DNA of 23,513 nt from a virus: IMG/VR virus record IMGVR_UViG_3300046694_000612, positions 1 through 23,513 of that record, one strand, 5' to 3'. The notes under the pieces are model-generated. The model was not told the origin of the DNA. It was given only the letters and a program-made list of their open reading frames with translations, and searched no databases. How positions within the stretch are numbered: the first letter of the stretch is position 1; every line of letters begins with the position of its first letter. Of the stretch, positions 5,504-8,534 are shown in pieces. Position numbers and translations under genes: made by a program.

Positions 5504-5767
5504 TCATCGACCCATTAGTTTTTCATGATCAGACTTTGCTCTTGCCCGTTGAATATCTATATATCTGGCAAGGTCAGAGAGATGAACGCCCAAAGCGGCT
5601 TTTTGAGATTCCGCTCCCAATCTTACAATTGGTAGGTCGATCTCTCCTGATAGACACTTGCTTTTGAATTTTTCAACGGTCAACCCCATGTAGTCAGTAC
5701 ATACTTGACTGATTGGTATGACGGCTTGTCCGCTATATTGCGCCATGAGTAAAAATAGCGTGTTCAT
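5504..5767 (-). CDS. prtN: PrtN-family pyocin/prophage transcription activator (copy 1)
   Basis: An 87-residue protein resembling the pyocin activator PrtN family, small DNA-binding proteins that in Pseudomonas aeruginosa switch on pyocin genes after DNA damage. Visible family features are an N-terminal strand, then VIPISQV, a helix-turn-helix-like segment FKSKCLSGEIDLPIVRLG, and a C-terminal HLSDLARYIDIQRA helix. The ATG follows AGGAGGCCGC, an excellent ribosome-binding site. It forms an ATGA overlap with the stop (5764-5766) of the reading frame nested in the upstream methyltransferase gene. It is the last gene of the leftward operon, so it would be made only after the repressor is released. 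Targets in this phage are unknown; late genes are a plausible guess. A longer paralogue lies at 8214-8534. Confidence 0.85.
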   Translation of the reverse strand: MNTLFLLMAQYSGQAVIPISQVCTDYMGLTVEKFKSKCLSGEIDLPIVRLGAESQKAALGVHLSDLARYIDIQRARAKSDHEKLMGR

Positions 5768-6528
5768 GCGGCCTCCTGATCAGGTAGTGGAGAGCGCTTC
5801 GAATGCGCTCGCAGCCACGACTGGAACCTGTCCGTTGCCAATGGCCTTAAGCCGGTCCACCCGATGGGCCACCCCATCAGCCACTCGGCCCATTCCGGGT
5901 TCAGATGACCACCATCCAGAGCCATCACGGCGTGATCCAGGCGATCGTTCGAACGGTCGGCCCCGGATCGGCGAGTCAGTGCGGCAGGGGAGGATCCCTT
6001 TGCCATGCTCGCCACTGGCGTTGGCCATCGTCTGGTCGGCGTCTTCCGCGATGAGCCAGATCCGGTCTCGCTGATGAGGCGCGCCGAAGTCAGCCGCTCC
6101 GATAACACCCCATCGCGCGTCATACCCCATTTCGGCAAGATCACCGAGCACCACGGCAAGTCCTCTTCCCACAAGCAGTGGTGAGTTCTCCAGTTCGACG
6201 TAGCGCGGTCGTACCTCATCGGTAATTCGTGCCATCTGTCGCCACAGTCCGGAGCGGGCGCCGGCGAGGCCAAGCCCGTTACCGGCGGCCGAGATGTCCT
6301 GGCAAGGAAATCCTCCCGAAACCACGTCAACAAGCCCTTTCCATGGTCGGCCGTCAAAACTGCACACGTCAGACCAAATTGGGAAAGCCGGGAGCACGCC
6401 ATCGGTTTGTCGTTGCGCCAGAATTTGTGCTGCGTAGGCATCACGCTCAACGGCGCAGACTGTGCGCCAGCCGAGGAGGTGGCCGCCGAGTATTCCGCCA
6501 CCAGCGCCTGCGAAAAGAGCCAGCTCAT
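5764..6528 (-). CDS. Nested overlapping frame inside the phage methyltransferase gene
   Basis: A 254-codon frame, +1 relative to the methyltransferase, with no stop along its length. Its ATG (6528) lies eight bases after GGAGG and directly after the stop of the upstream gene. Its TGA forms an ATGA overlap with prtN, the coupling style of this operon. The protein is not random-looking. LTWFREDFLARTS (67-79), CGDRWHELPMRYDRATSNWR (95-114), LPKWGMTRDG (131-140), RWPTPVAS (167-174) and LNPEWAEWLMGWPIGWTGL (209-227) are blocks I recall from proteins encoded next to, or annotated as, phage cytosine methyltransferases. The 'NPxWxEWLMGWPxGWT' block is very widespread in phages. Function is unknown. 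Alternatives are that it is only translated through frameshifting with the methyltransferase, or that it is an unexpressed overprinted frame. Residues 1-60 look least family-like, so the true start may be internal. Confidence 0.6.
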   Translation of the reverse strand: MSWLFSQALVAEYSAATSSAGAQSAPLSVMPTQHKFWRNDKPMACSRLSQFGLTCAVLTADHGKGLLTWFREDFLARTSRPPVTGLASPAPAPDCGDRWHELPMRYDRATSNWRTHHCLWEEDLPWCSVILPKWGMTRDGVLSERLTSARLISETGSGSSRKTPTRRWPTPVASMAKGSSPAALTRRSGADRSNDRLDHAVMALDGGHLNPEWAEWLMGWPIGWTGLRPLATDRFQSWLRAHSKRSPLPDQEAA

Positions 6529-6532
6529 TCAC
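5780..6532 (-). CDS. dcm: Phage DNA (cytosine-5) methyltransferase, short form
   Basis: A 250-residue C5-cytosine methyltransferase from the phage early operon, distinct from the cargo enzyme. Motif I is FAGAGGG (7-13), motif IV is GGFPCQDIS with catalytic Cys77, motif VI is ENS (115-117), motif VIII is QRDRIW (154-159) and motif X is IGNGQVPVVA (231-240). The segment between motifs VIII and X is only about 70 residues, so the target-recognition region is very short or degenerate and activity is uncertain. The start is GTG at 6532-6530, overlapping the TGA of the upstream gene (GTGA). GGAGG lies only four bases upstream of it and fits the nested ATG at 6528 better. A likely role is self-protection of phage DNA from host restriction. 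Nearly the whole gene is overlapped in the +1 frame by a second apparently real coding sequence. Confidence 0.85.
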   Translation of the reverse strand: MNELALFAGAGGGILGGHLLGWRTVCAVERDAYAAQILAQRQTDGVLPAFPIWSDVCSFDGRPWKGLVDVVSGGFPCQDISAAGNGLGLAGARSGLWRQMARITDEVRPRYVELENSPLLVGRGLAVVLGDLAEMGYDARWGVIGAADFGAPHQRDRIWLIAEDADQTMANASGEHGKGILPCRTDSPIRGRPFERSPGSRRDGSGWWSSEPGMGRVADGVAHRVDRLKAIGNGQVPVVAASAFEALSTT

Positions 6533-6786
6533 GTGGCCTCCAACGAGAGACGTTTGTACCCCTGAACAAGCTGCGCGGGCGGGCGATTCTGAGCGACTAG
6601 CGTTTCATCAGGTGTGGCTGCCTCGCGCAGCTTTTCGTGGGGTATAAGTGACTCGGCAGTGGCGCTGAGAGGGGCAATAATGCCTGCTGCTGCGCAGCAG
6701 AGACTGTTTATTTCAGTTATGTCGACACCAGGGGTGTTGCGGAGCAAAGCGGTCGACGTTTGGGTGGTGTTCTGGTCCATTTTCAT
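6529..6786 (-). CDS. Small phage protein of unknown function (85 aa)
   Basis: The frame is open further upstream, but that part only mirrors the HD-hydrolase gene in another frame. The ATG at 6786 makes an ATGA overlap with the hydrolase stop and follows CGGAGGAAAGCGGC, so it is the supported start. The product begins MKMDQNTTQTSTALL and carries an Ala/Cys-rich segment CCAAAGIIAPLSATAESL around residues 30-47 that might be helical, but there is no convincing membrane segment. Its stop overlaps the GTG of the methyltransferase gene. I do not recognise the family. Confidence 0.65.
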   Translation of the reverse strand: MKMDQNTTQTSTALLRNTPGVDITEINSLCCAAAGIIAPLSATAESLIPHEKLREAATPDETLVAQNRPPAQLVQGYKRLSLEAT

Positions 6787-7325
6787 GCCGCTTTCCTCCG
6801 ATGTTCGATAGCGAGTTGGTCCATCAGGCGCTGGTGAAACGTGAGCCGGGCTTCGGTGGCGGACCATGGGCGGATGGTTTCTGCCCTGGGTTCGATATCG
6901 ATCAGGCAATCCCAAGTGGTCGGGTCTGCTGGCATCAGGTCGCGGCGTTCAGTTGCCAAGGCGACAAGATCGGCGTGGCGTACAGAAGCCGGTAGTTCTG
7001 AGGCGAGGTTGAAGCGTGTGCAGATGCGTTCCCAGATCCATTGCTCGACGTCCTGGTACGCATACATCCATTGCTTCAGCGGTTGCACCATGTCGCCGAT
7101 GTAGGCCTCGGCCGCGTCGTGGAGGAGGGCTGCGAGCTTGTCTTGTTCAGGCACCAGGTCAGCGACCATGCAGGCGTGTTGTGCCACGCTGTAGAACTCA
7201 CGAGTGTGGCCGTTGAAGCGGCATAGGTGCGCCAGCGAATGGGCTATGTCACGTGGGTCAATCAGATCGGCATCGGGTTCGTACAGGTCAAAGCGCTTTC
7301 CGGTGGCGGTGAGAATCTGGCTCAT
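6783..7325 (-). CDS. HD-domain phosphohydrolase (YfbR-like)
   Basis: A 180-residue HD-domain metal-dependent hydrolase. The metal ligands appear in order: His in AHLCRFNGH, His in YSVAQHACMVAD and the HD doublet in ALLHDAAEAYIGD, a spacing typical of YfbR/5'-deoxynucleotidase-like proteins that are common in phage early operons. The likely role is dephosphorylation of nucleotides to adjust the dNTP pool. The start at 7325 is preceded by AAGGAGGCCGC and overlaps the upstream gene by ATGA. The C-terminus (HRRKAA) overlaps the next gene in the same way, so it is translationally coupled on both sides. Confidence 0.85.
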   Translation of the reverse strand: MSQILTATGKRFDLYEPDADLIDPRDIAHSLAHLCRFNGHTREFYSVAQHACMVADLVPEQDKLAALLHDAAEAYIGDMVQPLKQWMYAYQDVEQWIWERICTRFNLASELPASVRHADLVALATERRDLMPADPTTWDCLIDIEPRAETIRPWSATEARLTFHQRLMDQLAIEHRRKAA

Positions 7326-8213: not shown

Positions 8214-8534
8214 TCACGATTCCGGTTTGCTGGTTGTTGGTCGCGGCATGTCTTCGTCTGCCTTGTAGGCGCGGATGTCGATCAGCGCGGCAACGTGTTT
8301 GATATGGGCATACCTCAAAGCTTTTACGCTTTCGTCGATGGTCGTCACCGGGAGTTGAATCCGCCCGCTGTTGATGGCCTCCGAAAACGTCTTCTCGTTG
8401 AGGTTTCTGAAGTAACGTTCGCGCAGTTCTTCAAGGGGGATAAGCACATCGCCAAAGATTTGGTGCAGCATCTCGACAGTGGAGCTGTCCGGTGCGGGAA
8501 GTAGTCGCAGCGGTGTTTGGTTGGCATTATTCAT
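8214..8534 (-). CDS. PrtN-family protein (copy 2)
   Basis: A 106-residue protein whose core from VLIPLEELRERYF through FSEAINSGRIQLPVTTID to HIKHVAALIDIRAYKAD matches, block for block, the PrtN-family pattern of the protein encoded at 5504-5767 (VIPISQV, then SGEIDLPIVRL, then HLSDLARYIDIQRA). It has an extra N-terminal 25 residues. It is probably a DNA-binding regulator of phage genes. AAGGAGG lies about 12 bases upstream of the ATG, rather far. The start overlaps the end of the small gene at 8527-8706. Confidence 0.75.
   Translation of the reverse strand: MNNANQTPLRLLPAPDSSTVEMLHQIFGDVLIPLEELRERYFRNLNEKTFSEAINSGRIQLPVTTIDESVKALRYAHIKHVAALIDIRAYKADEDMPRPTTSKPES

Follow-up and report, generated by a model that had tools for sequence, protein, structure and literature searches.

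The window, the whole stretch of 23,513 nucleotides from virus record IMGVR_UViG_3300046694_000612 that was analysed, carries on its minus strand a gene for a C5-cytosine methyltransferase (alpha), 63% in GC, and an open reading frame (ORF) in the +1 frame that spans nearly all of this gene. An earlier note on this DNA had reported a 254-codon +1 ORF over almost the whole methyltransferase, and that ORF is present as described, at 6528..5764 inside 6532..5780. The features of the locus, in order of coordinates, are the following (TRD, target-recognition region).

5504..5767, minus strand: prtN-like gene (PF11112, 2e-25); its ATG overlaps the beta stop
5764..6528, minus strand: nested +1 ORF, proposed beta (TRD and motif IX subunit); ATG start, 254 aa; phrog_1008, 9e-18
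5780..6532, minus strand: alpha, C5-cytosine methyltransferase; GTG start, 250 aa; PF00145, 8.1e-31
5822..5842, minus strand: alpha motif X, IGNGQVP, in the alpha frame again (sequence; constraint back on alpha)
5857..5904, minus strand: motif IX block of the proposed beta, LNPEWAEWLMGWPIGW (hhalign to L282, Camerico beta and Catdawg gp5)
5858..6037, minus strand: alpha codons 166-225, constraint on the nested frame and not on alpha (substitution pattern)
6010..6027, minus strand: WPTPVA element of the proposed beta, target-recognition region (sequence)
6062..6085, minus strand: alpha motif VIII, GAPHQRDR, end of the part alignable to M.HhaI (profile alignment)
6296..6316, minus strand: alpha catalytic motif IV, GGFPCQD; nested reading REDFLART (sequence)
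6494..6517, minus strand: alpha motif I, LFAGAGGG; nested reading LFSQALVAEYS (sequence)
6529..6531, minus strand: TGA stop of the upstream ORF, abutting the nested ATG and overlapping the alpha GTG
6537..6541, minus strand: Shine-Dalgarno (SD) sequence GGAGG common to both starts (sequence)

The nested ATG lies 4 nt downstream of the alpha GTG (GTGAATGAG), and the shared GGAGG is spaced 4 nt from the latter and 8 nt from the former. The better-spaced ribosome-binding site and the ATGA overlap with prtN that had been claimed for the nested frame are both in the sequence, the overlap at 5767-5764, and the blocks that had been quoted as family-like in both frames were quoted correctly (VSGGFPCQDIS in alpha and FREDFLARTS in the nested frame; the motif X region and PEWAEWLMGWPIGWTGL). 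These starts are kept among relatives: 128/141 loci have the nested ATG, and in 99 of 113 it is separated from the SD sequence by 8-9 nt. The beta start of K1G relatives lies deeper inside alpha and is preceded by an internal SD sequence (e.g. AAAGGAGTATTGAAGATG); in some phages, alpha has its own start further upstream and the nested ATG is retained. It was concluded that beta is probably initiated at its own ATG.

Two PrtN/excisionase-like genes (phrog_1300) occur in one short region of the window, at 5504-5767 and 8214-8534, both on the minus strand; the former is the one that overlaps the beta stop. The stretch 6783-7325, which lies on the same strand and immediately precedes the methyltransferase, has a weak match, below the cut-off, to an HD-domain, 5'-deoxynucleotidase YfbR-like family (PF12917, 7e-4).

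Alpha itself carries an incomplete set of motifs. Motifs I, IV (PCQ), VI (EN) and VIII are present, and motif X (IGNGQVP) is present in frame 0 and kept in relatives, but the chain lacks motif IX and the TRD: the PF00145 match stops at profile position 168 of 324, and alpha can be aligned by profile to M.HhaI only up to residue 179, at motif VIII. The missing motif IX block is found in the +1 frame instead. At several loci (L005, L087, L088, L110, L124, L130, L150, L160 and L166), TTA or CTT stands at the usual alpha start and the nested ATG is retained; an apparent alpha start was found 3-20 codons earlier, in some cases with an SD sequence, so that alpha was not considered dead. In Klebsiella phage BUCT711 (L004), alpha is changed right after the catalytic PCQ (FPCQAFSKASRGR) and both frames are open.

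Coding constraint in the two frames

Taken alone, the window offers a marginal case for a second gene. On permutation of synonymous codons in alpha, a nested ORF this long has P=0.046 and a stop-free frame P=0.062; because the gene is 63% GC, a long nested ORF arises in 4.6% of shuffles, and one genome therefore proves little. An ORF length so marginally unusual is what might be expected if the nested ORF were a by-product of GC-rich coding and of constraint on the methyltransferase, and not a gene. The case from relatives is strong. A tblastn search with the nested protein gave 34 phage records, and all of those examined encode alpha overlapping it at a fixed offset. To avoid selecting on the nested frame, 80 viral loci were fetched with a profile made from alpha only. 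The nested frame has no internal stop in 73/80 of these relatives and, in nearly all of the remainder, is interrupted near its end. Among the 78 testable loci of this set, 72 are stop-free where 0.5 would be expected from synonymous-codon permutation, and the stop-free loci include genes of 46-50% GC.

Loci were also classed by the frame of a motif IX-like block (core [WLMA]xMGxP), with about 35 left unclassified, and stops were counted for each clade between alpha codon 30 and motif VIII. With the block in the +1 frame, this frame is stop-free in 142/142 window-clade loci (10.0 expected), in 60/74 of the clade of E. coli phage K1G (9.3 expected) and in 10/13 of a mycobacteriophage clade (0.8 expected). 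Control enzymes with motif IX in frame 0 (n=28, single chain) have +1 stops at 2.96 against 2.82 expected, and the +2 frame of the nested clades showed no stop avoidance. The longest +1 ORF of E. coli Dcm, a canonical monomer, has 88 codons (P=0.74); that of an enzyme on a Methanomethylovorans archaeal plasmid has 180 (P<0.001) and ends in TLNPVWTEWLMGLPTNW. The plasmid locus (L289; NC_019972, 929-1717) is a 'dcm' whose nested +1 ORF carries LNPVWTEWLMGLPTNW. Single indels in one or both frames at L046, L047, L049, L051 and L064 were taken as broken copies or sequencing errors.

The earlier note had proposed that synonymous-site constraint be compared in both frames across related phages, and such a comparison favours both frames, on different stretches of the gene. 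The third position of an alpha codon is the second of a nested codon, and the first position of an alpha codon is the wobble position of the nested one. Substitutions per site, counted among 32 close relatives and given for alpha positions 1/2/3, were 0.040/0.011/0.080 over alpha residues 1-60, 0.046/0.036/0.196 over 61-120 and 0.066/0.021/0.142 over 121-165; they then turned to 0.296/0.063/0.039 over residues 166-200 and 0.117/0.043/0.042 over 201-225, and finally to 0.173/0.138/0.300 over 226-250. The wobble position is therefore that of alpha as far as motif VIII, that of the nested frame as far as motif IX, and that of alpha once more at motif X; this frame switch has a Fisher P of 1.6e-7 on variable columns. 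Three further sets, namely the alpha-selected loci and the K1G and mycobacteriophage clades, also have their lowest p3/p1 ratio between motifs VIII and X, although it drops there to 0.7-1.0 only.

Ratios for overlapping frames were obtained by an OLGenie-style count written for this analysis, in which sequence pairs are non-independent and intervals derive from a bootstrap over codons. Over alpha codons 166-225, the nested dNN/dNS is 0.06 (0.03-0.10), and the alpha dNN/dSN of 0.88 (0.42-3.43) is near neutral. In the window clade, the nested frame is under moderate constraint over alpha codons 2-165 (dNN/dNS 0.51, 0.33-0.79), with a value of 0.43 (0.19-0.85) over codons 2-60; in a wider set, its N-terminal part gave 0.86 (0.70-1.08), an interval that includes 1 and is not significant. 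Much of the N-terminal ~165 residues of beta may thus be a passenger.

Both frames are accordingly under selection. The proposal that the nested frame is a genuine gene under selection was upheld by its kept start and SD spacing, by coding constraint and by the scarcity of stops in relatives. Against its being a by-product stand the excess of stop-free loci, which extends to the genes of lower GC content, the monomer controls, which lie at expectation, and the switch of substitutions between frames; these comparative data refute the by-product explanation, short of a codon-pair bias artefact specific to nested-type genes, and its probability is negligible.

A single chain made by programmed frameshifting, with a +1 shift after motif VIII for the TRD and motif IX and a shift back for motif X, would also fit the succession of constrained frames (alpha, nested, alpha), and frameshifting has been suggested as a possibility for the related Corndog pair (PMC4351075). 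Such a chain requires two shifts, however, and would have no need of an open nested frame upstream, yet this frame has no stop between codon 30 and motif VIII at any locus of the window clade. The ATG and SD sequence kept at the 5' end of the nested frame, and the internal SD-ATG that K1G relatives have for it, likewise argue against frameshifting, which is considered very unlikely. Two separately initiated chains remain the preferred reading of the constraint data.

Probable identity, distribution and proposed role of the nested protein

The nested protein ends in WPTPVASM...GGHLNPEWAEWLMGWPIGWTGL and matches a PHROG family, phrog_1008; no match was returned for it by Pfam or NCBIfam, or for nested proteins by a profile search of the PDB. 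An AlphaFold2 model of beta alone, made with 55 relatives, was poor (pLDDT 40), perhaps because the partner was absent. The probable identity of the nested protein emerged from enzymes of mycobacteriophages and related phages (L282, L292-L333) that carry motifs I-VIII, LPTPxA repeats, PEWMMGWPAGWVT and GNGVxPQQA in a single frame. Among these, L282 has no long +1 ORF, the single-chain L304 matches PF00145 over profile positions 1-317 of 324, and a model of L330 is closest to M.HaeIII and M.HhaI (TM about 0.5), its core being confident and its TRD not. A profile of 55 nested proteins is homologous to the monomer L282 at the motif IX block (hhalign E=4e-8), to the beta of Gordonia phage Camerico (1e-11) and to gp5 of Mycobacterium phage Catdawg (2e-14). 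Camerico and Catdawg encode split enzymes, in which the second ORF holds the TRD, motif IX and motif X. For the N-terminal ~100 residues of beta, no homologue was found outside the overlap.

Monomeric and split enzymes carry in-frame homologues of the C-terminal half of the nested protein, and this conserved half was therefore taken to be a part of the methyltransferase that has been moved into the other frame. The suggestion that the nested family arose by overprinting of the methyltransferase gene therefore does not hold for this half, and de novo origin of the whole nested ORF was rejected on the same grounds; the N-terminal ~100 residues alone could be truly overprinted. A related possibility, suggested by that idea of its origin, is that the nested ORF encodes an independent overprinted protein with a function unrelated to methylation, and the N-terminal half, which has no homologue outside the overlap and shows some constraint (dNN/dNS 0.43), is consistent with this. 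Yet the best-conserved part is homologous to the TRD and motif IX that methyltransferases carry in frame, alpha lacks exactly this part, and +1 stops are avoided only where motif IX lies in +1 and not where it lies in frame 0. An unrelated function is accordingly given little credence, and the nested ORF is most likely, on these homologies, the beta subunit of a two-chain methyltransferase.

Motif IX lies in the +1 frame at 258 loci, nearly all with motif X in frame 0, and this nested layout occurs in phages of Proteobacteria, Actinobacteria, Firmicutes and Bacteroidota as well as on the archaeal plasmid. Altogether three layouts were distinguished: all motifs in a single frame; a split after motif VIII with TRD, IX and X in +1; and TRD and IX in +1 with X in alpha. 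In a tree of the N-terminal part of alpha, the nested layout appears as one change, and monomer and split forms are mixed. The tree is based on 120 columns and is poorly resolved, so that a single origin is allowed and not proved; L322 is wrongly labelled in it as split, which leaves the nested group unaffected. The window-type enzyme L153 (2501-3399) has its motif IX block in the alpha frame, a possible natural re-fusion or a frameshift error. Two monomer-related mycobacteriophage enzymes, L310 and L323, have motif IX in +1 after an early alpha stop and appear to be recent splits.

Taken together, the data point, with a probability of about 0.88, to one stretch of DNA that encodes both chains of a single C5-cytosine methyltransferase in a layout like that of M.EcoHK31I. 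This reading is supported by selection on both frames, by the frame switch between motifs VIII and X, by homology between the nested C-terminus and segments that bear motif IX, and by the kept starts. Alpha, in frame 0, would supply motifs I-VIII and X, and with them the AdoMet site and the catalytic PCQ, and beta, translated from the +1 frame, would supply the target-recognition region and motif IX. By analogy with the alpha and beta chains of M.EcoHK31I, the two would assemble into an active enzyme, which would methylate phage DNA, presumably as a defence against host restriction. The layout may have originated from a single-frame enzyme when an indel after motif VIII moved the TRD-IX segment to +1, with motif X restored to frame 0 in a later step. 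It is possible, though somewhat doubtful, that these enzymes form an old class, perhaps of single origin, whose halves lie in two frames and whose beta has an overprinted N-terminal domain with a function of its own, such as alpha-beta assembly.

The layout has consequences for annotation and cloning. Most of the nested loci inspected have alpha alone annotated (e.g. L001, L002 and L008); in L003, L006 and L178 (as hypothetical) and in L009 (as 'DNA-cytosine methyltransferase') the nested frame alone is annotated and alpha was missed. Because only one frame is annotated at most loci, many phage methyltransferases are half annotated. Recoding the codons of one frame for cloning would abolish the other, and alpha expressed alone would be predicted to have no activity. 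The loci also provide a large natural data set of long same-strand overlaps in which each frame appears to be part of the same enzyme.

Relation to known methyltransferases

Two-chain C5 methyltransferases are already known. The beta gene of M.EcoHK31I reportedly lies inside its alpha gene, in a different frame, and, if so, the encoding of a small subunit within the large-subunit gene is a likeness to the window. The distribution of motifs is another: M.EcoHK31I (YGGCCR) is described as having motifs I-VIII and X on the large subunit and only motif IX on the small polypeptide (PMC3404938). Unlike that system, the window's nested ORF spans almost all of alpha and shares its ribosome-binding site, and it belongs to phages and not to a restriction-modification pair. 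Furthermore, the target-recognition stretch of the window is constrained in the beta frame, whereas the TRD of M.EcoHK31I was predicted in the literature to reside in the large subunit.

M.AquI (CYCGRG) is similarly split after motif VIII, with a distal variable region and motif IX on its small subunit, but motif X is also on this subunit (PMC3404938), and in the window it is in the alpha frame. Gordonia phages Camerico and Upyo and Mycobacterium phage Catdawg have the AquI-like layout. Catdawg, used above in the profile comparison, is a relative of Corndog, and in Corndog and other Cluster O mycobacteriophages gp7 and gp6 likewise represent an N-terminal methylase half and a C-terminal half in overlapping frames; in contrast to the window, these overlap partially and motif X is in the second frame. 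HHpred matched the 53 C-terminal residues of Corndog gp6 to the last helices of M.HaeIII, the start of gene 6 with the best support falls within gene 7, with the internal start ambiguous, and neither product was seen by mass spectrometry; two products and one frameshift product were left undistinguished by the authors (PMC4351075).

Both overlapping frames are annotated in Escherichia phage K1G, as ORF31 ('C-specific methylase') and ORF30 ('Mte8-like protein'), with beta starting 88 nt inside alpha. The GenBank record states no function for or link between them, RefSeq calls both 'DNA methyltransferase', and nothing about function was found in the literature on 'Mte8'. An out-of-frame ORF within a phage DNA methylase gene has also been described as the ShiLan domain or hidden HNH endonuclease (PMC11855218); it is a mobile insertion with an HNH nuclease and is unrelated to the nested ORF of the window.

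A literature search limited to open papers found no report of such a layout for phages. Compared with the known systems, the present findings offer a testable answer to the published question of how split methylases of the Corndog kind are expressed (PMC4351075). What is new is how widespread the layout is, with >250 loci classified from several bacterial phyla and one archaeal plasmid; the evidence from comparison that both frames code, and where each does so; the homologues in a single frame by which the nested block is identified; and nesting that is nearly complete, with one ribosome-binding site shared by both frames.
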